Source: Bacteroidota bacterium (GTDB lineage: Bacteria > Bacteroidota > Ignavibacteria > Kapaibacteriales > UBA2268). Taken from it: DNA of 64,000 bases. Below the pieces are notes generated by a model. It did no database searches. It saw only the letters and a program-made list of their open reading frames with translations, and was not told the DNA's origin. Below, piece by piece: positions 2,030-64,000 of the stretch. The position numbers were made by a program, and so were the translations under genes. Position 1 is the first letter of the stretch; each line of letters starts with the position of its first letter. The stretch lies in contig JAJXYC010000008.1 in the NCBI GenBank assembly GCA_021780815.1, positions 22,249-86,248 on the forward strand, read 5' to 3'.

Positions 2030-3421
2030 TTATTTTTGAACAATAACAATTTCAGTTCTTCTATTTAATTGCCGTCCGAATAATGTAGCATTACTTGCAA
2101 TAGGTTTACTTTTCCCAAAACCTACCGTTTGTATTCTATTCTCATCAATTCCTTTTTTGACTAAATATTCTTTAACCGCAATAGCTCGTTTTTCAGAAAG
2201 CATTTGATTAGCTTTAATATCGCCCACTGCATCAGTATGACCTTCAATAACAATTTTAATATTAGGCTTAGATTGCATAAATTCTGCAAGTATATTTAAT
2301 TCTTCAACGTTATCGGGTAAAGAAAAACTCGCAACGTCAAAAAGGAGATGTTCAAGAATTAATTTTCTTCCAAGTTCAACAATAGGAATAGTCTTTTTAA
2401 ACAATTTCTTTTGTTTAACATCATAGTAACCAATTTCTATTGAATCAGGGATTTCAGATTTATTAGATAAATAAGTAACATAGTATAAATTCGTAAGTTG
2501 ATTGGAAAAATTATCAAGGACAGTAGAAAATGGATAGTCTAAATCGAACCAATTACCACGAGTAGATTTTGCAATTGTCTCATACTGTGTTAATTTCTCA
2601 GGGACAATAGCAAAAAGCCGCATCTGATGCTTTTGCATTAATTGAATAATGCTATTTATATCTTGGTTTGTTGTCCCATCCCCTTGTTCGCCTTTTTGAT
2701 GAAAAGGAGCATCTGTAATTAAAATAATTACTTTGCTTGCTTCTTTACGGTAATTTAACTTGGAAGCTGAAACTAATGCTTCAAGAGCATTTTCCTTTTC
2801 ATCTCCTCCACCATAAGCTTTAACGGTAGAAATCCAATCTAAAAAATCATAAACGTTGTTGGTTGGTTGATAAACTTTTTCAACTTCATCCGAAAACAAG
2901 ATTAAGCCAATACGATAATCTATACCACGCTTTACAAGTCTTTGTGTAAAACTAATTACATTATTTTTTACTGCATCAATATTAGGTTGCATTGAACCTG
3001 TTTTATCAACAACAAAGACAAAATCAACAGCAACTTTTTCAGCCGCTGGAATTTTTTCAACAGAAATGATTTTCTTCCTTTCACCGTTTTCAAAGATATA
3101 AACATTATCAGGACTTAAAGAATCAATTGGTTCGCCAAGCTTATTCATCGCTTCAACTAAAATTTTAATAGTAGGAAATTTGCTAATATCAACACTTTGA
3201 ATTGTTAAATCAACTTCTTTTTTTGCCGCTTCAAGTTTCGCTTTATTCAAAATATCAAACTCAAGATTTGGATTTTGGTTTTGGTTTGGATTTTGATTAG
3301 GATTTTGATTTGAATTCTGGGCTACTAAACTAATTGTTCCCCCCGTAAGAACAAAAGCTATCATCGCAAGAATTGAATAATTAATAATTTTATAAATATT
3401 CAATTTTATTATTTTGTACAT
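2030..3421 (-). CDS. VWA domain + OmpA-like peptidoglycan-binding protein
   Basis: VWA MIDAS VFVVDKTGSM; OmpA C-terminus VIEGHTDAVGDIKANQMLSEKRAIAVKEYLVKKGI...FGKSKPIASN...NRRTEIVI; QNPN-rich segment after the signal anchor. Confidence 0.9.
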   Translation of the reverse strand: MYKIIKLNIYKIINYSILAMIAFVLTGGTISLVAQNSNQNPNQNPNQNQNPNLEFDILNKAKLEAAKKEVDLTIQSVDISKFPTIKILVEAMNKLGEPIDSLSPDNVYIFENGERKKIISVEKIPAAEKVAVDFVFVVDKTGSMQPNIDAVKNNVISFTQRLVKRGIDYRIGLILFSDEVEKVYQPTNNVYDFLDWISTVKAYGGGDEKENALEALVSASKLNYRKEASKVIILITDAPFHQKGEQGDGTTNQDINSIIQLMQKHQMRLFAIVPEKLTQYETIAKSTRGNWFDLDYPFSTVLDNFSNQLTNLYYVTYLSNKSEIPDSIEIGYYDVKQKKLFKKTIPIVELGRKLILEHLLFDVASFSLPDNVEELNILAEFMQSKPNIKIVIEGHTDAVGDIKANQMLSEKRAIAVKEYLVKKGIDENRIQTVGFGKSKPIASNATLFGRQLNRRTEIVIVQK

Positions 3422-3446
3422 ATTTACAACTCTTTAAAATAGGAAA

Positions 3447-3478
3447 CCTCCATCTTGTTTTTAATTGTCAGATGGAGG
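3447..3478 (-). other. Intercistronic GC-rich hairpin
   Basis: Perfect 9-bp stem cctccatct / agatggagg, 14-nt loop, between genes at 3498-4955 and 2030-3421. Confidence 0.6.
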
Positions 3479-3497
3479 CGAATTTCATAAAAATAAT

Positions 3498-4955
3498 TTA
3501 TATAGTTAATCTTAAAAGTGGCGATATCATAAAGAAATTCTGAATTTCGTATGGTCTCGCAACTCTTAATGGTGTAGAATATTTAGCTTCTAAATATAAC
3601 CAGTTACCAAGCAAAGGTAACCAAACGTCCCCCATAATAGTTTGATTAGAATATTGCAAGCTAGCACCAAATGGATAAACAGCTTGATTTCTATATTCAA
3701 CTTTAGCATAAATCCAGTCACCAAATTCAGATGGTTTATAAGTTGTTAATCCATCTACACCTGGGTCAAGTGAATAAATAGTTACGCCACCTTCACCAGG
3801 CCTTTTTGTTAATCCCATTTCAGTAACTTCGCTATAATTTAAACCAAGGTCAAATCTTAAATAGTTTTCAGGATTTTTGGGGTTTAACCACCAATTATAG
3901 AAAAATGACAGAACGCCGCTTGCACGTAGAACTGGAGCAATTGAATCTACTCTACCATTATCAATTATTCTATCACCGGCTGGAATAAAACCATAAGTAT
4001 TTTGGTCTATATCATAGCTAGTAATTGATTTCATAGGTAATTCTGCCCGCAAAGACACACCTGCTTCTGGTTTAAACGGCATATTAACATCAATACCTAC
4101 TACCATTTTACCATCATTAGCATTATTAAGAATTCTTTTTGGTATCCAACTTAATAAACTGCTTGGATTGATACCAGTTTGAACACGATAGCTACCGCCT
4201 AAATAAGCATTAATTAAATAAGGGATTGCACGACTTGTTCTTGAATCGTTATTCACATAAAGAGGTCTTTGAATAACAATTTTTGCAGCACCAGGATACC
4301 AGAATGGATAACCAATTTCATCATTACCCATAATTGAGCGTATCCAGAAACCTGTTTCACCAATTTTTAATGATTGTTCAAATAAAGAAAGCGTAAAAGC
4401 TTGTGAAACATTTGTTGGTTGTAAGAAATTAACAATAGTTTCAGCTTGACTTTGTGTTAATGGTACTTCGGTAGGAATTTCTTGAAAACAGTAATCTCTT
4501 TTTGCAGGAGTTTGTTGTTCTCCACGTTTAGAACCCGAATAGACCATATCACCTGATAGAAAGCCAAGTAAAATTGAACCCATATTAGACTCAATTTGCA
4601 CAGCATTCATACTTGCTTCACCACAGTTAATAACAAGAATTTGGAAAGGGTCTTCATCAAATTCTTTTGGGGCAGCCATAATTTCAATATTTTGTTGGTC
4701 TAAAATTTTTGGGTCATAATTATAATATAAAAAAGATTGATAGATTTGAACTTGCAAATCTGGTTCGCAAAGTTTCCATCTCGGAAAGTATTTCCTAATA
4801 TTTGGGTCTATAGTAGTCAAAGAATCAAGGACTGCTTGCTTATCCAGAGCAGGCGTTGGAGTAGGATTTGTCGTTGGTGTTTGAGCTTTCAAATCTCCAA
4901 GCACTATAACTAACAAAGTTATTACAATAATCGTTATTCGTTTTAAAATTTTCAT
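3498..4955 (-). CDS. Hypothetical secreted / outer-membrane protein, beta-rich C-terminus
   Basis: Signal peptide; C-terminus FGASLQYSNQTIMGDVWLPLLGNWLYLEAKYSTPLRV...PLLRLTI resembles neighbour 4979-6715. Confidence 0.7.
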   Translation of the reverse strand: MKILKRITIIVITLLVIVLGDLKAQTPTTNPTPTPALDKQAVLDSLTTIDPNIRKYFPRWKLCEPDLQVQIYQSFLYYNYDPKILDQQNIEIMAAPKEFDEDPFQILVINCGEASMNAVQIESNMGSILLGFLSGDMVYSGSKRGEQQTPAKRDYCFQEIPTEVPLTQSQAETIVNFLQPTNVSQAFTLSLFEQSLKIGETGFWIRSIMGNDEIGYPFWYPGAAKIVIQRPLYVNNDSRTSRAIPYLINAYLGGSYRVQTGINPSSLLSWIPKRILNNANDGKMVVGIDVNMPFKPEAGVSLRAELPMKSITSYDIDQNTYGFIPAGDRIIDNGRVDSIAPVLRASGVLSFFYNWWLNPKNPENYLRFDLGLNYSEVTEMGLTKRPGEGGVTIYSLDPGVDGLTTYKPSEFGDWIYAKVEYRNQAVYPFGASLQYSNQTIMGDVWLPLLGNWLYLEAKYSTPLRVARPYEIQNFFMISPLLRLTI

Positions 4956-4978
4956 CTTATACCTATCAGCTTAATTAA

Positions 4979-6715
4979 TTAAAAAGTTAGAATAAATCTT
5001 GCCATTGGGATAAAAACACTTTCATTTTCCCAAGCTTTTGGAGAATCAGCAAAAGCTTTAAAGTAGCTTTTTGCATCTAATCTTAAATAAGCTTTATTCG
5101 TTACAAGTGGAATTTGAAGCCATAAATCAGCATAAAGTGCTTCATCGAAGTATTGCAAAGTGCCACCAAATGGAGTTGATAATGATTTTGCCATAAAATC
5201 AATTTTACCCATTATTCCACCTGATGTTGTTGTTGTATATTTCTTGTATAAAAGTTCAGGCATTCTTGTGGTTGGATCTTCAACAACACTATAGTGCCAC
5301 TGCTCAACAGAAAATACTGCACCACCTAAACCAAATCGCATTATATAATCTTCATCTATTGATATTCCAAAAGTGTAAATTAAAGTTGCATTTCCTCTCA
5401 CTAAATAATCATTATCACCGGCTGTATAGACATATTGATCTGGGTCTGTGTTTCTATTTTTATAATCTGCTGGATGCGCATCACCAAAGACATAACCACC
5501 ACTAACATGGAAGATACCACTGGCTGGCATAAGCAATATAGGAAAATCAAGTGATGTTGAAATGCCAACTCCTCCATAAGTTAGTTTTCGTTGCACTGAA
5601 AAGGCATCTTGTGAGAGCGAAGCCCACCCTGATGTAGGAAGAATTAATCCTAATTTTGTTCCTTGCCATAATGCACTTAAAGTCATTCTTTCGCTCCAAA
5701 GTGATGGATAAGAAATATCTTCTATTCCATATTTTAATTCAAATCCATATTTAGGCAAAGATGAATTAGTTATAGTACTTACTGTATCAGATGTGCCATC
5801 TTCATAATTATTAATTTGCATCGCATATTTTGACCAGCGGATTAAATCTGGACTTATTATTACTTCATTAGTAACATAATCCATTTTATTAGGTTGACCC
5901 TCTGTAACTTGTAAAAATTTTTCAACATCTTGTGAAGTTACTTCATATTTGTTTTTTACTAATGAATTTGAAACTCCATATCGTTTAGGAGCAAAACGCA
6001 AAAATGTCCCAATTCCTTGTGATTCTAATGTTTTATTTTCTACATTGCCTTGTCTGAAAGCATTCAACACTAAATCGTACATATTGTTTGCACGAAAATC
6101 AGAAGCATTTATTTCAAAGCTTTTCAATTCAGGATATGTGTAGACATTAGTTGGAGTTGGATTATCAATATTCTTTTGCAATTGGTCATTATCTTCGGTC
6201 GATACAATTAAAGCAATAATTGTATTAGGTTCAATTTGGTCTGATGACATTCTGGTTGTAATAGCATAAGCTGTTCTCAATTGTTTTACTGGTCCAGAAG
6301 TTTTTTTAGAATAGTAATTGTAAATACATTCAATGTCAGGTGGAATAACCATACCACGGCTTAACATTTCACGTCTTAATTGAGCAATTGACATACCTTC
6401 TTTTGTAGCGTTATCTACAAAATTAAGTATAGTTTTATCGCCTTTTTTTACACAATCATCAACTACTGCACCACCTTGGTCATCGCTATTTGTGTTATCT
6501 TGCGATTCTTTTGCTTTTATAGCATTCCTGATATCTTTTATATCTTTAATTTTATAAATAGATATTTCAGAAAAACGATAATTCTTAAATTTGGAAAGTA
6601 TGCTTTCCAAACGAACTCTGAAACCTTCGTCTCCTCCTTGAGCAAATATATGTAATGAGCTAACAAAGAATACAACAATTAAGCTCGTTACAACTATCAA
6701 AGTTTTTTTATTCAT
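4979..6715 (-). CDS. Hypothetical secreted / outer-membrane protein, beta-rich C-terminus (paralogous to 3498-4955)
   Basis: Track start 6790; better start at MNKKTLIVVTSLIVVFFVSSLHIFAQ (signal peptide, 6715). C-terminus FGGTLQYFDEALYADLWLQIPLVTNKAYLRLDAKSYFKA...MARFILTF. Confidence 0.7.
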   Translation of the reverse strand: MNKKTLIVVTSLIVVFFVSSLHIFAQGGDEGFRVRLESILSKFKNYRFSEISIYKIKDIKDIRNAIKAKESQDNTNSDDQGGAVVDDCVKKGDKTILNFVDNATKEGMSIAQLRREMLSRGMVIPPDIECIYNYYSKKTSGPVKQLRTAYAITTRMSSDQIEPNTIIALIVSTEDNDQLQKNIDNPTPTNVYTYPELKSFEINASDFRANNMYDLVLNAFRQGNVENKTLESQGIGTFLRFAPKRYGVSNSLVKNKYEVTSQDVEKFLQVTEGQPNKMDYVTNEVIISPDLIRWSKYAMQINNYEDGTSDTVSTITNSSLPKYGFELKYGIEDISYPSLWSERMTLSALWQGTKLGLILPTSGWASLSQDAFSVQRKLTYGGVGISTSLDFPILLMPASGIFHVSGGYVFGDAHPADYKNRNTDPDQYVYTAGDNDYLVRGNATLIYTFGISIDEDYIMRFGLGGAVFSVEQWHYSVVEDPTTRMPELLYKKYTTTTSGGIMGKIDFMAKSLSTPFGGTLQYFDEALYADLWLQIPLVTNKAYLRLDAKSYFKAFADSPKAWENESVFIPMARFILTF

Positions 6716-6747
6716 ATGTTTTACCTTTTTTTTCTCTTCTTTTTTCC

Positions 6748-6775
6748 CAATGCCTGAGTTTGAACTCAGGCATTG
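6748..6775 (-). other. Intercistronic hairpin without U-tract
   Basis: Perfect 11-bp stem caatgcctgag / ctcaggcattg, 6-nt loop; lies between 6833-9118 and the corrected start of the next gene. Confidence 0.6.
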
Positions 6776-6832
6776 AATATAGTTAATCAATAATTATATT
6801 TTAAATTTCATTATCAAAAATGATACCTAAAA

Positions 6833-9118
6833 TTAGCGTCTTCTTTGTCTGTTTTTATCAGGTTCAAAGTTAATAGGTATTTGTAATGGGATCTTCTTCG
6901 GGTCAGAACGAGCGTTATTTATTGGGTTAATTGAAACTGCTTGTAAATTAACAGAGATAGTTCCTCTAACTTTTGTTTGACCACGTTCGAGCTTCCCATT
7001 TAATTCTAATTGTAAAGTATAACCATTGTCAGGATCCCCATCAATCGAAGGTTCAATTGAGAAATTATACCCTGAAAGTCCATCAATAATTTGAGGTTCA
7101 CCTGCAACTGACATTTCAATTTTAGCATCTTTGTCGCTTCCTGTACCCGGTTTATTTACTTGAATATTAGAAACAACAATCTTTATTTTAGTTGCGGAAC
7201 CAGAAACATCAGTTAAAATATTTCTTAAAATTACATTAGGTTCTTCTTGTTTAATATCATAAGTTTTAAGTGGTAAAATATCAATTTCTTTACCTGTAAA
7301 TGGTTGAACCCAAGTAATTTTAATGCTTAATTTCTTAGCAGGAGGTTTCAAAGGCAATCCATTTTCAGGAGAAATAGTTAATCCACTAAATGGAGGTCTT
7401 TGACTCTCTTGGTCAGTTGTAATATAAATTCTAAATTGGTCAGGTTTAATCTTTCCACCTGATGAAGGAACAGCATTAAGAGAAGCTGACAATCCATAAT
7501 AAGCATATGCTAAAAATCTTTCGTCAATTTCTTTTGCACTTTCAGGTGTAAGTGACGATGGGAAGATTTCAAGTTGTAAAGTTCCTGTTCCTTGTTTACC
7601 CATCAATTTATGGTCAATTTCAACTTTATATTTTCCAGGCGATAAATTCGTGCTTGTAGTTGCTAAATAATCACGACTTCCACCTTGAATTGGTTTAGTT
7701 GCTCCTGAACCTGGAATTTCATCCATTGGTTTCAAAATCAATCTATCAACAATTGCACCTTTACTATCAAACACTTTGCCTTCCAATTGGTTCTGGTTTT
7801 CTTGATATGGACTCATAGTAAATTGGAATGCCGCCGGAACTTTATCAAAACTAGCAACATAATCAGGTGCTGTAACTGTAGGCTGAGCAATTTGTGGTTT
7901 TGGTGTAATTACTCTAATATCAAATTCAATGCTTCCTTTGTTTTGGTCAAAGTTAGCAGATTGACCTGGTGAAAGTAATCTAACAATATATCCATATAAA
8001 TTCAAACTATTGATGATTTCACTTGCATTGTCATCTTTTTTAGCATTAATAATAGATTGATTTAATAAATCCATAAACTTATCAATATTACCATCTTTAA
8101 ACAAAATGTCTGCTGGTGGCGGATTGTATTTATCCAATTTATTAGTTAATTCTTTTAATACACTTCTTAAATCTTTAACGCTTAATTGTACTGTACCAAT
8201 ATTTACAGTGGCATCATCAGAAATTTCATCGGCAGTTAAACCACCTTTAATACCAAGGATACGGTTAGTACGTGAAACAAAACGAAGCTTATACCAACCT
8301 GCTTTATCGGGTGGTTGGAAGTTTACAACAAAATCACGTTTAACTAATCCACCTTTTTTATCAAACCCTTCTTTTAAAGTTTCATCTTTAGAATAGAAGA
8401 ACGCACTATCCAACGGTAAATTCTTTGGAATCAAAATTTGTCCATCTCTTTTAATCAAAGAAGCAGGATAAATAGGTTGAATAGTTTCAGGTCTAACATT
8501 TTTCAAATCCAACGAATTAAAAGTTGCATCTTCATCAAGATTAAGTTCAGTAGAACCAATAAATTCCCACGCAGAACCTGTTGAATTATCAGATTGAACA
8601 AGTTGTCCCGGTTGTAAGTTCATAAAATCAAACTTTCGTCTCTTGATTTCATCTTCCGTAGGGAACATTGGTGGTCCCGCCGGGTCGGCAGAAGAATTAT
8701 AAAAAACTTGATATTGAATTTCTTCAACATTGGCAAGTTTTACTAATTTTTGCAAACGAAGAGTATAATCTTTGTCCGACTCCCCTTCTTTCCTTTTTAA
8801 ATCAGCACTGACATCAGAAACACCAACTGAAACAATATATTTTCTGAAAGGCTTTAAATCAGTTCCAAGAACTTGTTTAATATCTACTCCCGAGGGTGGA
8901 ATAGTAATTTCGTCTTGCGGACGTGTATTTATACCTTCTGTTCCAGCTCCTGATTGCAACTGAGACAATATACTTTCTACAATTTTCATTGTCTCTCTTT
9001 GCTTGCTTGCAAGATGCTCTTCTGCCTCATCTCGCTCCACAATAATAATTAATAACTCTAACACTACAGCAAGATAAAGCACAAAGTAGACTTTCCCTGC
9101 TCCACCACCTTTAGACAT
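6833..9118 (-). CDS. GldM-like single-TM envelope protein with large periplasmic region
   Basis: Short cytoplasmic N-term (MSKGGGAGK), one TM (VYFVLYLAVVLELLIIIV), 700+ aa beta-rich periplasmic part; topology resembles GldM/PorM, identity not established. Confidence 0.5.
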   Translation of the reverse strand: MSKGGGAGKVYFVLYLAVVLELLIIIVERDEAEEHLASKQRETMKIVESILSQLQSGAGTEGINTRPQDEITIPPSGVDIKQVLGTDLKPFRKYIVSVGVSDVSADLKRKEGESDKDYTLRLQKLVKLANVEEIQYQVFYNSSADPAGPPMFPTEDEIKRRKFDFMNLQPGQLVQSDNSTGSAWEFIGSTELNLDEDATFNSLDLKNVRPETIQPIYPASLIKRDGQILIPKNLPLDSAFFYSKDETLKEGFDKKGGLVKRDFVVNFQPPDKAGWYKLRFVSRTNRILGIKGGLTADEISDDATVNIGTVQLSVKDLRSVLKELTNKLDKYNPPPADILFKDGNIDKFMDLLNQSIINAKKDDNASEIINSLNLYGYIVRLLSPGQSANFDQNKGSIEFDIRVITPKPQIAQPTVTAPDYVASFDKVPAAFQFTMSPYQENQNQLEGKVFDSKGAIVDRLILKPMDEIPGSGATKPIQGGSRDYLATTSTNLSPGKYKVEIDHKLMGKQGTGTLQLEIFPSSLTPESAKEIDERFLAYAYYGLSASLNAVPSSGGKIKPDQFRIYITTDQESQRPPFSGLTISPENGLPLKPPAKKLSIKITWVQPFTGKEIDILPLKTYDIKQEEPNVILRNILTDVSGSATKIKIVVSNIQVNKPGTGSDKDAKIEMSVAGEPQIIDGLSGYNFSIEPSIDGDPDNGYTLQLELNGKLERGQTKVRGTISVNLQAVSINPINNARSDPKKIPLQIPINFEPDKNRQRRR

Positions 9119-21312: not shown

Positions 21313-21350
21313 TTTTATAATTTTATAATTTTATAATTTTATAATTTTAT
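21313..21350. repeat. Tandem 8-bp repeat (TTTTATAA) x4 plus a partial copy
   Basis: ttttataa at 21313, 21321, 21329, 21337, then ttttat 21345-21350. Confidence 0.9.
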
Positions 21351-24264
21351 CACGATAAACTATATTATAATCGCTATAAATAATTATTGAATAAAATCCA
21401 CTGGATAATTGCTTCAAATTAATTACCGCATCTTCGTTTATTTTACCCGAAAGAACATTCATACCTTCCACAGAATAAATAGAATAAGTCAAGTTCAGCA
21501 TATTACTGCTATTGTCTATTTTTAAATACTCCTTAACAGGATTAGGATATAGTGTAAACTTTGAAAAGAGTAAATGATTTTGTACACTTGTAGTTTTTGG
21601 AGTAATAGAAATATTATCAATAAACCAACCAACATCATTTTTAAACACATTAGTGCTAATCCGAAAACGTAGCAAAACATTATTGGCAATAACAGGGAAA
21701 ACAAGATGCTCTTCAACCCAATCACGTTCATCTAAGATTCCATCATTCCAAAAAGAATAATCATTTTTTGAATAAATTGCAGTTTTATTTTCAAATTGAT
21801 TAGACCAAGTTAAACCATTATCAGAAGAGAATTCAACTGTTGCTAAATCGTTAGGCTCAACAATTACAGCTTGGTAAAAGTTAATTTGGGATTTTTCAGT
21901 TAGATTAACAGGAAAGAGTAAAAAAGTATCTTTTGTATTATTTTCATAATTCGCATTAGGCGAATCAGTCAGAGAGTAAGGTAAAGAAAGGGCTAATTCT
22001 TGTGTTTTTCCCCATTTATGCCCAAAGAAATATTTATTTAATTTAATACCATCAAAATTTTCTTCAAAGGAGTGCGACTCACTTATTTCAATAGGTAACC
22101 CAGAATAAGCCAACATAGAGTTGCTTAAAATACTTAATTTTTTCTTTGAAGTTTGTGCTACGGTTTGAATTTGATAAAATCCTTTTTCTAAATTGTATTT
22201 TGATAAAGACAAATGAAAAGCAATGGTTTTACCCGTATCAGATGGTAAAACTTGTATTTTTGATACCAAAGAACCATCAAGATAGAAAGCAATTGAATCC
22301 AAATCTACCAAAGGGGTAATACTATCGCCCCGTAAAGCAGGCATTTGTGCCATAATATCATATCCGTAATCTGTTTGTTCTTCAAATCCTTCGGCAGAAA
22401 TTAATATTGGTTGAGCAGGATTAAGTGACCCCCCCGGATTAGCATTTATACTACGGATAATACTTGAATCCAATCCAGTAATAGTATAAACATCATATTG
22501 ATAATTTTTATATTCTTCTAATCCAGAATCGAGATAATTTGTCGTTCCCCCATTTAAAGTAGCAATTAATTTATTATCTCTTACAATTTTTATTTGATAA
22601 TCTTGATTTTGTAATTTTTGTCCGAATGAAAATGTTAAAGGGTTAATCCAAGACAAAGCAACCCTATCAGTTAAATCAGGGAAAATTTTAGTTTGCAAAT
22701 TCTCAACAGGCAATGGAGAGCGTGTATCAATAATCGCAGTATAAACATCATCGTCCCGAATATCAGAAATTGCATTACGCATATCAACCCAGGAAGGGAA
22801 AATTTTACCATTAAAAAATGCAACACCACTATAATCGCCAGCAAAAGCATTGTCCATAAACGGATTAAGTCTCAAATCATTAACACCGTCACCAACTCTT
22901 TTATCAATCCAAGTTAAACCACCATCATTAGAATAACTTACATAACAATTCACTAAAATATTGTTGGTATCATCACGACTATCAAAATACATAACAGCAA
23001 TATCACCATTTTTTGGGTCAATAGCCATCCATTGCCAAAATTGATCATTTGTCGTTACAGAATGTACAATTACAGGATTAGACCAAGTTTCTCCAAAATC
23101 AGTAGAACGAGAAAAATAAATGTTTGGGATACTATCCGCAGCCCAAGTTAAATACAAATAACCATTTCTTGGACCACCAGTAATATCGCATTGAATTACA
23201 GGGTATGCCTCGGCTCTTACTTTCCCTTTTACTGTATGTCGATAACCACCTTGACTTTCAATATATTTAGTTATTCCAAAAATATTATACCTTTGAATTA
23301 TTTTAGGTGCTGAATAAGTTTTTCCCCCATCAGTAGATTTTGCAAAACCAACTCCGTGGACAATACCATCATTCCACACAACATAAATTTCGCCATTTGG
23401 TCCGGTTGTAGCTAATGGAAAGCTTTGCCCATAAGTCGTGTCTTCCGAAGAACCAGTTTTACGAGGACTTATAGGAATTGGCTTTGACCAAGTTTGACCT
23501 CTATCCAACGATTTTGCAATGACAATTTGCGTGGCAGAATCACGTGGGGTTACTCTTTTCCAAGGTACATAAAGATTATGTTGATAAGGTGAAGTTACAG
23601 AATTATCAACTTGAATATAATATTTGTCTTCAAAATTTGAATCAAGTGTTTGATTCCCTTGATGCAAAATAACAGGAATATGTGCAGTCCAAGTCTTTCC
23701 CTCATCGATAGTTTTTGCTAAAAAAACACCGTTTTCACCAACCATCTGTGTTTGGTTAGGGTCTATTTTCCCGAAACCACCATAAACAAGATAACCCGTC
23801 CCATCATTATCAAAAAAAACTGACGGGTCATTAGTCGATTGCCAACCACTAAAAGGTTTCCCTAAATCTATATTAGTCCAAGTATTTCCCCCATCAGACG
23901 AAACATAAACCCAAGTTGATGAATTATCTCTATAATCTACCGCAGATGCAATTAAATTCTGTGGATTTTTGGGATTTATTGCTATTGAAGATTCATTTTG
24001 CATCTTATAACTTTGATTAGTTTCGTCTCCGATTATATTTACATTTAAAAAGAACGGCAAAAAAGAAGTGTTGTCTTGTAAAGGAACAACCATTTGACTT
24101 TGAAAATATTTGGCATCGGGAGTTGGATGTGCATTTTCCATCAGCCTATTAAAAGTATTTTTTGCTTGTTGCATTTCATACTCTAATTCTTTTTTGTTTT
24201 CTGAAAATAAATTTGGAGACAGAATTATACTTAAAAAACTAATGAATAGTAAATACTTTTTCAT
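21331..24264 (-). CDS. Secreted BNR/Asp-box (sialidase-like propeller) protein with T9SS C-terminal sorting domain
   Basis: Asp-boxes SSDGGNTWT, SKSLDRGQTWS, SRSTDFGETWS, SYSNDGGLTW; C-terminus LYPNPVKEYLKI...LKQLSSGFYSIIIYSDYNIVYRDKIIKL; start moved from 24285 to MKKYLLFISFLS. Confidence 0.88.
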   Translation of the reverse strand: MKKYLLFISFLSIILSPNLFSENKKELEYEMQQAKNTFNRLMENAHPTPDAKYFQSQMVVPLQDNTSFLPFFLNVNIIGDETNQSYKMQNESSIAINPKNPQNLIASAVDYRDNSSTWVYVSSDGGNTWTNIDLGKPFSGWQSTNDPSVFFDNDGTGYLVYGGFGKIDPNQTQMVGENGVFLAKTIDEGKTWTAHIPVILHQGNQTLDSNFEDKYYIQVDNSVTSPYQHNLYVPWKRVTPRDSATQIVIAKSLDRGQTWSKPIPISPRKTGSSEDTTYGQSFPLATTGPNGEIYVVWNDGIVHGVGFAKSTDGGKTYSAPKIIQRYNIFGITKYIESQGGYRHTVKGKVRAEAYPVIQCDITGGPRNGYLYLTWAADSIPNIYFSRSTDFGETWSNPVIVHSVTTNDQFWQWMAIDPKNGDIAVMYFDSRDDTNNILVNCYVSYSNDGGLTWIDKRVGDGVNDLRLNPFMDNAFAGDYSGVAFFNGKIFPSWVDMRNAISDIRDDDVYTAIIDTRSPLPVENLQTKIFPDLTDRVALSWINPLTFSFGQKLQNQDYQIKIVRDNKLIATLNGGTTNYLDSGLEEYKNYQYDVYTITGLDSSIIRSINANPGGSLNPAQPILISAEGFEEQTDYGYDIMAQMPALRGDSITPLVDLDSIAFYLDGSLVSKIQVLPSDTGKTIAFHLSLSKYNLEKGFYQIQTVAQTSKKKLSILSNSMLAYSGLPIEISESHSFEENFDGIKLNKYFFGHKWGKTQELALSLPYSLTDSPNANYENNTKDTFLLFPVNLTEKSQINFYQAVIVEPNDLATVEFSSDNGLTWSNQFENKTAIYSKNDYSFWNDGILDERDWVEEHLVFPVIANNVLLRFRISTNVFKNDVGWFIDNISITPKTTSVQNHLLFSKFTLYPNPVKEYLKIDNSSNMLNLTYSIYSVEGMNVLSGKINEDAVINLKQLSSGFYSIIIYSDYNIVYRDKIIKL

Positions 24265-60388: not shown

Positions 60389-62713
60389 CTAACGATTAAT
60401 AATAATTGTCTTACATAAATTTTCTCCATCGGCTATTAATCTTACAAAGTATATACCAACAGGTAAATTTTGAACATTATTGATAATATGATATCTTCCG
60501 GGAATTAAGTATTGAGTCATAATATTGCTTACCTGATTTCCTTGTAAATCATAAAGTGCTAATTTGACATAATTATTTTTTGTAGTTTGAAATTCTATTT
60601 GTAATCTATCATTAATAGGATTTGCCCCTACGATATTAAGCGAATTGTGATTTATCAAATTTTCATTTTCTTCAACTGAAACAGATTTTTCAACAATTTT
60701 ATTTATCTCGTTAATTTTGATATTATAATAAGTCAAATAAGTTTTTGATCCTGGCCAGCGAACATCAACTTGCGTAATAACATTAGAATTACCAAGTCCG
60801 AAATGCAAACGAGATGGCTTTTGTATGTTGCGACCACGTCCAGCAGTAACTTCTTGTGTATATACACGTTCAGGAGTATATACCTTTACTTTTGCCCCAA
60901 TAGCTTGCGAATTACCTACTTCCGATCGCAAATCAAGTTCCAACCAATTATTTGGAACTGCCGGACTGTATAGATTTTTATAAAGTGCAAAATTTCTATC
61001 AATAGACATCGCTAAATCTAACCTGCCATCATTGTCAAAATCAACCCATGCCGCATCATCACCAGAAACTATTCGATTTAATCCCCATTCAAAAGTAACA
61101 TTGCTAAAAGTATGGTCTATATTTTGTTTATATAAATCCACGTATCTGCAACCGTAATATGTAGTTAATATCAAATCAACAAGACCGTCATTATCAATAT
61201 CACCCCATGCCCCACCAGATTGAGCTTCTTCATATTCAATTCCCAAAGACGAGGCTCCTTTTTGAAAATCAAAAGTATTAGTAAAATTCCCATTTGAATT
61301 TCTGTATATTGTTGTCCCTTGGAAACCTAAAGCAATAAAATTAGTTGGGCAATATTGAGGCAACATTAAATCTAAATCGCCATCATTATCAAAATCGTAC
61401 CAATCAACACCCATACCGTAATTACTATAGGTTTTCCCTTGATAAGTAAGCATATCAATTGCTTTATCTTTTGCAACATCAGTAAAGACCATATCCCCTT
61501 TATTTTCCCATAATTCATCTTGCTCTTGGTAATAATTAGTAACAAATAAATCTAAATCACCATCATCGTCATAATCAACAAATTCAGTTCCTAAAGTTCG
61601 ACGAGCAACAGGAGTTTGGCATAGACCTCCTTTTAAAGTAAAAGTGTTATCCTTATTATTAATAAGCATATAATTTGGAAGCAAGTTAGGCGGGTCAGTT
61701 GACCAACTTTGTGCAACAAAAATATCAGGATAACCGTCGTTATTTATATCGGCAATACTAAATGCAGAAACTCCACGAAAAGCAGGTAAATTTATATCTT
61801 TCCCTACAAAATTTCCATTACCATCATTAATATACAACTTACTTAACGTGGTACCTTGCGGGTTTGAATTTAAAAAGATAATATCTAAATCGCCATCATT
61901 ATCAACATCTATAAAAGCATTAGCGGCTGGTTTGCCACTTAGTCCTGCTTTCGTCGTTATTTCTTTGAAGCCTCCGTCTTGTGTATTTAAATATAACCGC
62001 CCACTAATTAAAGCATCTAAATAGCCATCATTGTTTATATCGCCCCAAGCGATTGTAGAATCTGGCAAAGATGATGATAGTCCAGAACTTACAGTTCTAT
62101 TGGGTAAATAACCCTTTGTACTACCAAAAATGAACTCAACAACTAAATCGCAAAAATAAGCATAACTCCCTACTCGCCAATTATAAGTTGAATCTACCGA
62201 TTTAAAATCAGTCAATGTTTGATAATTAAATGTTCCGCCTTCGGGCGATTGGCAACTTGGATTAACATTTGTTATTGTAGTATTAAAATAAGTGCTATCA
62301 GGATCATCTGTATAAAATCCTACAAAACACTGGTCATTGTAAAAATCAATTGGTGTTTGTAATGTTATTGTTATAGGTATTGGTTGTTGCGAACCTTGAA
62401 ATTGAAATTGTTCTGTTGATGATATATTTTTGCCAGATGACATAAAAAGATTGGGTATTGGTGAACCTCCTTGATGACCTAAAAGTACCACCTTGACATT
62501 AGCAGGTTTGCCTGATAAATATAAAGTATAGCCTTTTATTTTGCACGGTGAAGGTATGTCAAATCGTTGAAATTGCCAAGTATATTTGAAACTGCTGTTA
62601 TCAAATTTAGCTATTTGGTCATTATCATTCCAATACCTTATTACATAATCATCAGAATAAACCTGTTTTGATATAAATAAAAAGAAGAAGTAAAAGTAAA
62701 TAAATTTTTTCAT
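60389..62713 (-). CDS. Secreted FG-GAP/VCBS propeller + ASPIC/UnbV protein with T9SS C-terminal sorting domain
   Basis: Repeated D.DNDGDLD motifs; NWLELDLRSEVGNSQAIGAKVKVYT...GRGRNIQKPSRLHFGLGN; C-terminus LQIEFQTTKNNYVKLALYDLQGNQV...LPVGIYFVRLIADGENLCKTIIINR. Confidence 0.92.
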   Translation of the reverse strand: MKKFIYFYFFFLFISKQVYSDDYVIRYWNDNDQIAKFDNSSFKYTWQFQRFDIPSPCKIKGYTLYLSGKPANVKVVLLGHQGGSPIPNLFMSSGKNISSTEQFQFQGSQQPIPITITLQTPIDFYNDQCFVGFYTDDPDSTYFNTTITNVNPSCQSPEGGTFNYQTLTDFKSVDSTYNWRVGSYAYFCDLVVEFIFGSTKGYLPNRTVSSGLSSSLPDSTIAWGDINNDGYLDALISGRLYLNTQDGGFKEITTKAGLSGKPAANAFIDVDNDGDLDIIFLNSNPQGTTLSKLYINDGNGNFVGKDINLPAFRGVSAFSIADINNDGYPDIFVAQSWSTDPPNLLPNYMLINNKDNTFTLKGGLCQTPVARRTLGTEFVDYDDDGDLDLFVTNYYQEQDELWENKGDMVFTDVAKDKAIDMLTYQGKTYSNYGMGVDWYDFDNDGDLDLMLPQYCPTNFIALGFQGTTIYRNSNGNFTNTFDFQKGASSLGIEYEEAQSGGAWGDIDNDGLVDLILTTYYGCRYVDLYKQNIDHTFSNVTFEWGLNRIVSGDDAAWVDFDNDGRLDLAMSIDRNFALYKNLYSPAVPNNWLELDLRSEVGNSQAIGAKVKVYTPERVYTQEVTAGRGRNIQKPSRLHFGLGNSNVITQVDVRWPGSKTYLTYYNIKINEINKIVEKSVSVEENENLINHNSLNIVGANPINDRLQIEFQTTKNNYVKLALYDLQGNQVSNIMTQYLIPGRYHIINNVQNLPVGIYFVRLIADGENLCKTIIINR

Positions 62714-62846: not shown

Positions 62847-64000
62847 CTACATCTTTACAAATTTTATTGGCTTTTCATTTCCAATTTTCAGAAAATAAAT
62901 TCCCGTGGAAAGTGTGCTTATATTTATCCGGTGACTTTGATCTGTCGGATAAATTTCTTCTGCTTTTACACGATACCCGTACACATCAAAGATTTCAACG
63001 GAAACTCCTACTTGTCCCATTAGAAAAGGAGAATTGAAAATGATATAATCCGTTGCTGGATTTGGGAAAATTTTGTATTTTTCTGTAAAGAATGGGTCAG
63101 AAACAGAAGTTATAGCGTTATCAAGAAGCCAAAGATAAGCTGTTGATACTGAACAAAGAATGTCTGAATTATTCTTATTAAAATTAATAAATTTTGTTTC
63201 TCCGACTCCAAGATATAAATATTTAAAAGTTATTTCTGGAAATAAATATTTTTTTAATCCATAATTATGACCAAGTGATGTTCCAATATAAAAATACTTT
63301 GAATCATTTGACCACCCAAAATTATCTATTCCTACAAAATCACTTTCCCAGACCACAGAATAATCAGTAGTAGAGTAAAGAGTAAGTTTGCCATCATGCT
63401 GATAACCTAATACACTGCCGTCTGGGGAGTATTTGAGCTTGATATTATCAAAATTATTTGGTATTGTTATAGGTATTTCTCTGACTTTTTGCAATGTTTG
63501 TATATCCCATATCTCTAATTTTGAAGTATCTGTATAAAAATCTCCTTTTGAATTTATGGCTGTGCTTTTTAATAAGAATGCGACCTCTTGACCATTTGGA
63601 TTTATTGTTGATGTTATCATTGTAAATGCTTTACCCGGGTATGCTTCCCATTTTAAAATACTCATATCCGATGGTTTAAATATTATTATGCAGCTATCAT
63701 AATATCTGCGACTTTGTTCTTCTATGTAATGATAATCTCCCGATGTTGCTAAACCTATGTCATATTTATCATTAATTTCCCAGTTCCAATTTTCCCACTG
63801 AATATTATTTTTTCCTCCTCCAAATGAAAACAACTTCTTAAATGTGTTTGCATCATACTTATCACCATTGTAATTCCAAAAGTATTGTCCATCTTCGCTA
63901 AATTGACGTATTCCTCCGATTGTGTCAATTGTATCAATGACATTTCCTTGTAAATCGTATTTAATAACTTTATAAGACTCAACAAAAGTTGCGTAAATAA
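62847..64000 (-). CDS. Secreted WD40-like protein with T9SS C-terminal sorting domain; 5' end truncated by window edge
   Basis: C-terminus FPNPATDYIIFNSP...INISTLSTGIYFLKIGNEKPIKFVKM; frame stays open past 63833 (TTG in track): ...ATFVESYKVIKYDLQGNVIDTIDTIGGIRQFSEDGQYFWNYNGDKYDANTFKKLFSFGGG. Confidence 0.85.
   Translation of the reverse strand, partial: IYATFVESYKVIKYDLQGNVIDTIDTIGGIRQFSEDGQYFWNYNGDKYDANTFKKLFSFGGGKNNIQWENWNWEINDKYDIGLATSGDYHYIEEQSRRYYDSCIIIFKPSDMSILKWEAYPGKAFTMITSTINPNGQEVAFLLKSTAINSKGDFYTDTSKLEIWDIQTLQKVREIPITIPNNFDNIKLKYSPDGSVLGYQHDGKLTLYSTTDYSVVWESDFVGIDNFGWSNDSKYFYIGTSLGHNYGLKKYLFPEITFKYLYLGVGETKFINFNKNNSDILCSVSTAYLWLLDNAITSVSDPFFTEKYKIFPNPATDYIIFNSPFLMGQVGVSVEIFDVYGYRVKAEEIYPTDQSHRINISTLSTGIYFLKIGNEKPIKFVKM

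Follow-up and report, generated by a model that had tools for sequence, protein, structure and literature searches.

The closest described counterparts of the locus examined here are the GldL-GldM and PorL-PorM pairs, in which Glu49 of GldL is an essential residue. Like the putative axle M of the present locus, GldM and PorM are single-helix axle proteins with a long periplasmic part that is rich in beta structure; the D1 domain of GldM is formed by five helices (PMC5790014). The ExbB-ExbD, TolQ-TolR and MotA-MotB pairs are alike in general plan, i.e., a multi-helix ring combined with a single-helix axle protein. In canonical T9SS, the step that requires energy is the ejection of carrier-substrate complexes from SprA, and PorG/SprF is disulfide-linked to GldK; an origin of T9SS from the gliding track has also been proposed (PMC12635249). 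A survey with GldK/L/M/N profiles placed T9SS in Bacteroidetes only (PMC4793230), and T9SS cargo tails are known outside Bacteroidia, from Kryptonia and Melioribacter, the motor not being named there (PMC4737851, PMC3534657). Compared with the GldL-GldM system, the system described below has no gldKLMN cluster; it has two putative ring-axle pairs, and barrels and a VWA-OmpA protein apparently take the place of GldK/GldN.

The locus lies in a stretch of 64,000 nucleotides (the window) of a Candidatus Kapabacteria MAG, the host genome, which is 2.63 Mb in size and 99% complete. An earlier note on this DNA had described four co-directional genes with small gaps at positions 2030-9118, and the corresponding open reading frames were found there on the minus strand. 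The features of the region are as follows.

9425-9396, minus strand: promoter-like site upstream of M, 11/12 consensus positions; a consensus match only
9118-6833, minus strand: M, 761 aa; inner-membrane-anchored axle/shaft protein (proposed role)
6790-4979, minus strand: B603; signal peptide, periplasmic N-terminal domain and C-terminal outer-membrane barrel (predicted)
4955-3498, minus strand: B485; signal peptide, N-terminal domain with 3 conserved Cys, barrel-like C-terminus
3421-2030, minus strand: VWA-OmpA; signal peptide, VWA domain, OmpA peptidoglycan-binding domain
1963-1586, minus strand: rplS (ribosomal protein L19), 66 bp past VWA-OmpA
1559-1525, minus strand: terminator-like stem after rplS, 15 pairs, strong; a consensus match only

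For B603, an ATG at 6718 is a likelier start than the TTG. The successive gaps between M, B603, B485, and VWA-OmpA are 114 bp (42 bp with the TTG start), 23 bp, and 76 bp. As a member of the system, rplS was rejected: it adjoins the cassette in close relatives only, not in distant ones. The only domains of the operon recognised by Pfam/NCBIfam were VWA (Pfam, E 4e-16) and OmpA (Pfam, E 4e-22), both complete and both in the last gene, exactly the combination that had been read there earlier. The T9SS cargo domains reported in the window were also recovered, as TIGR04183 matches at 21337-21552, 60395-60622, and 62868-63071.

M has a single hydrophobic helix at residues 10-28. In its AlphaFold model (alignment of 59 sequences; pLDDT 86, pTM 0.53), one helix at residues 8-55 is followed by an alpha/beta region up to about residue 410 and then by beta domains, and the periplasmic part of ~700 residues is mostly beta structure. 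The predicted layout of the 761-aa protein, a single TM segment with ~700 aa of periplasm, was thus borne out. Its N-terminal stretch, KVYFVLYLAVxLELLIIIVERDEAEE, is near-invariant in 59 sequences whose identity elsewhere goes down to about 30%, and the TM segment carries a buried Glu. No match to M was obtained in Pfam, NCBIfam, or the PDB sequences.

Among 40 relatives, M was detected in 38; the remaining two are fragmented assemblies. Judged by M, the named relative nearest to the host genome is a Candidatus Kapabacteria MAG (71% identity). When synteny was checked across the relatives, the order M-B603-B485-VWA-OmpA was intact in 58 of the 67 named loci that had sufficient flanking sequence, down to about 30% M identity. 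Among the other nine, four differed only in that VWA-OmpA was not detected, one had no detected B485, and four were lone second copies of M. It is clear that the gene order recurs far beyond chance. M from other families of the class is shorter, measuring about 495-650 aa, with barrels and VWA-OmpA often still encoded behind it. In two families it is cut to a helix protein of 201-222 aa, followed by a secreted protein of 374-381 aa. The split M is seen at L261:4961-9198 and L262:5607-9412, between the barrel genes and the gene for L1, a membrane protein described below. It may be noted that some close relatives (among loci L081-L160) are publicly named Chloroherpeton thalassium, Desulfobulbaceae, or Bradyrhizobiaceae, and are probably mislabelled Kapabacteria MAGs.

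The earlier note had found gldL not visible. No GldL-like protein is indeed encoded within the window, but distant GldL homologues, L1 and L2, occur at other loci. The lone second copies of M (loci L126, L132, L140, L143, and L144) are immediately preceded by the gene for a ~470-aa membrane protein, and a profile built from this protein led to L1 homologues in 40/40 relatives. In the host genome, L1 (~450 aa) is encoded on contig C2, at about 122496-123848, away from M; it is not adjacent to M in most Kapabacteria. In other families of the class, it stands directly before M (L252, L253, L255-L258, L261, L262). The five loci with lone second copies belong to one Kapabacteria family, which carries a second L1-M pair without barrel and VWA-OmpA genes; this suggests duplication of the motor as a unit in that family.

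L1 has two smaller paralogues, L1b and L2, by profile search. The gene for L2 (268 aa) is directly upstream of that for M2 (492 aa, single helix) on host contig C16, at about 433950-436212 (L193:5951-8213). The TM segments of M and M2 are alike (probability 95), and none of 150 shuffles was as good. In L253, which represents one family of the class, the whole set forms a contiguous cluster, L2-M2-L1-M-barrel-barrel-VWA-OmpA. The same order occurs in L252, L257, and L260, with some of the genes seen by inspection only or lying outside the examined stretch. The L2 and M2 genes overlap, and next come two small genes with lipoprotein-like products of 210 and 182 aa.

For comparison with the known motor, canonical GldL sequences were taken from gldKLM loci. 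GldL matched L2 with probability 85 and E 6e-6, the GAA motif and the invariant Glu of both falling in register, a score reached by 0 of 450 column shuffles (three block sizes). L1 in turn matched L2 with probability 98 and E 4e-13. L1 alone gave no significant match to GldL in profile comparison, and its membership of the GldL superfamily is therefore transitive through L2. The two-helix hairpin, the GAA motif, and the Glu in the second helix are common to GldL and L2 directly, and to L1 through L2; the equivalent of Glu49 is invariant within each family. Unlike GldL, L1 has extra N-terminal helices in its ~450 aa. None of L1, L1b, and L2 matched the GldL models of Pfam/NCBIfam. Assignment of L1/L2 to ExbB/TolQ/MotA was tried and rejected, with no PF01618 match and a probability below 1 against an ExbB/TolQ/MotA profile built with proteins of the same genomes. 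The host genome has three PF01618 proteins of its own. A weak match of L1 to ZorA (E 0.006) was far below the cut-off.

On the outer-membrane side, both B603 and B485 have a signal peptide at the start and an outer-membrane-protein-like end. The two beta-rich proteins had been called paralogous, and this holds for their C-terminal parts, which are homologous by BLASTP (E 2e-5) and by profile-profile comparison (probability 97, E 5e-11, 134 columns). The model of B603 ends in a barrel, for which the best Foldseek matches were porins. Neither protein matched Pfam, NCBIfam, or the PDB sequences, and as candidates for GldK or GldN they were rejected, there being no similarity in profile comparison. 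PorG/SprF-type barrels are alike in being outer-membrane barrels expected to take force from a periplasmic motor. B603 and B485 differ from them in their large periplasmic N-terminal domains and in a lineage where no GldK was found, and no sequence similarity to them was shown. Three cysteines of B485 are conserved (C63 87%, C111 100%, and C156 87% of 47 sequences), and may, as a lead only, parallel the disulfide link of PorG/SprF to GldK. In its place between the putative motor and the outer membrane, VWA-OmpA resembles PorE/PorW and other outer-membrane-side T9SS accessory proteins. The earlier likening of the OmpA-type anchor to PorE proved weak: the OmpA peptidoglycan-binding domain is common to both, but nothing beyond it, the NCBIfam PorE match covering the OmpA part only (63/600 bits). 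VWA-OmpA has a VWA domain in place of the PorE architecture.

A search of the host genome for sprA, porV, gldK, and gldL had been suggested. SprA (744 bits) and PorU (797 bits) were found in this genome, as were three above-cut-off proteins of the PorV family (best 266 bits) and about 106 above-cut-off T9SS CTD cargo tails (TIGR04183). SprA, PorV, PorU, and CTD-tailed cargo are thus all present in the host genome. For gldL, the search gave the distant homologues described above. In 21 genomes of the order, nothing above the cut-off was obtained for GldN, and GldK gave matches to a shared C-terminal domain only, far below the cut-off. No match to TIGR03517 (GldM) was found in the host genome, nor in any of the listed genomes of its order or class. 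These absences are those of family-model searches, and MAG incompleteness could hide genes. Neither a canonical gldKLMN locus, named in the earlier note as one half of what would speak against its proposal, nor a GldM was found. Neither sprA nor porU lies next to the operon cassette. L1, however, adjoins a PorU-like gene in 16 of 30 loci holding about 1.5 kb of flank only, and this gene in L200 is a C25 peptidase/PorU by domain search; in L203, PorU, L1, M2, and L2 are contiguous.

In favour of a motor are the conserved four-gene order, the near-invariant TM helix of M with its buried Glu, the adjacency of L1 and M elsewhere, the full cluster in L253, the GldL-L2-L1 chain, the likeness of the M and M2 TM segments, and the invariant Glu49 equivalent. 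It is highly likely that these genes belong to some sort of trans-envelope motor driven by protons. That the motor serves T9SS is, from gene context, fairly likely: SprA, PorU, PorV, and cargo are present, no GldM, GldN, or above-cut-off GldK was found, and a PorU-like gene stands beside L1 in 16 of 30 loci. We therefore regard it as reasonably probable that the operon is the periplasmic/outer-membrane half of a GldLM-type proton-driven motor, most likely energising T9SS. L1, encoded on another contig, would form a proton-conducting ring in the inner membrane, with the conserved helix of M sitting inside it as the axle. The rod of ~700 aa of M would carry movement across the periplasm, and B603 and B485, with their periplasmic N-terminal domains, would receive it at the outer membrane. 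VWA-OmpA would hold the assembly to peptidoglycan, and the three proteins would stand in for GldK/GldN as receivers and anchor. In this way the SprA/PorV/PorU translocon would be energised, and SprA would eject carrier-substrate complexes. Complex formation, proton coupling, rotation, and the link to secretion are what we infer for this assembly. Several points were counted against this reading: the undetected homology between M and GldM, the differing first periplasmic domain, the transitive link of L1 to GldL, the separation of L1 from M in the host genome, the L2-M2 pair being closer to GldL, the counting of SprA/PorU/PorV in the host genome only, and the unlikeness of B603/B485 to GldK/GldN. 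The earlier proposal, which saw here either a T9SS core that has diverged or a related machine spanning the envelope, nevertheless has the best support, although the GldM similarity of the 761-aa protein was not demonstrated by sequence or fold search.

M could also be a true GldM orthologue, so extremely diverged that sequence similarity has been lost. It has the same layout (N-in, single TM, and a long rod in the periplasm with beta domains at its end), its apparent partner belongs to the GldL superfamily, and a weak profile signal connects GldM D2-D3 with its C-terminal beta domains (probability 12-17). However, three hhalign comparisons of M with the canonical GldM profile gave probabilities of 17, 5, and 12, and its TM segment matched that of GldM no better than shuffles, the common 'YL' being at chance level. 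Foldseek with the M model returned generic Ig-domain proteins only, among the best 50 matches. The membrane-proximal domain of M is alpha/beta, unlike the five-helix D1 of GldM, although the single TM and the C-terminal beta domains agree. With profile, shuffle, and fold tests all negative, direct homology was rejected, and since the first domain also differs, M was not classed as GldM; orthology is improbable. M appears to be placed and partnered like GldM, and may work like it, its identity as GldM not being established by the sequence tests.

Two other readings detach the operon from T9SS or dispense with the motor itself. The operon might be half of a GldL-type motor for surface motility, adhesin movement, or a Tol-Pal-like outer-membrane constriction, with L2-M2, encoded at another locus, powering T9SS. 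There are two motor pairs in the host genome, L2 rather than L1 is closer to GldL, and the cassette is away from sprA and porU. Against this, it is L1, the partner of M, that adjoins PorU in the 16 loci, PorU, L1, M2, and L2 are contiguous in L203, and both motors occur with the receivers in the single cluster of L253, which suggests one machine; we consider such a separate role unlikely. A static, motorless complex tying the inner membrane, peptidoglycan, and outer membrane would suit the OmpA peptidoglycan-binding domain and the outer-membrane barrels, and also the lack of an adjacent L1 in most Kapabacteria. It is, however, very improbable, as the near-invariant TM helix of M with its buried Glu and the recurrent adjacency to L1 with its invariant membrane Glu are both motor-like. 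The favoured GldLM-type motor can be extended to a compound machine, in which the L1-M and L2-M2 motors both act on the barrels and VWA-OmpA, powering T9SS without a GldK/N track. For Kapabacteria, and for certain families within their class, such a machine is possible but somewhat doubtful.

Should this operon turn out to be the energy chain that has been missing, that would explain why cargo tails occur outside Bacteroidia when the profile survey found T9SS in Bacteroidetes only. Its genes would then serve as markers for finding such systems, and would represent a second design of motor-to-translocon coupling. It would help to tell the essentials of T9SS energisation from the particulars of gliding bacteria, and would bear on the proposed origin of T9SS from the gliding track. 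If the compound machine exists, the same translocon would be powered in at least two ways, canonical GldKLMN being one of them. No description of the operon or of L1 was found in the open-licence literature on GldL/GldM/T9SS in Ignavibacteria/Kapabacteria, though it may exist elsewhere.

The third GldL-like protein, L1b (327 aa), is encoded on host contig C4 (L192:6258-7241) and is present in most relatives, in a neighbourhood that is not conserved. Its gene comes after those for a barrel-like protein and a CTD-tailed protein in the host genome, and after a run of response-regulator genes in L194.
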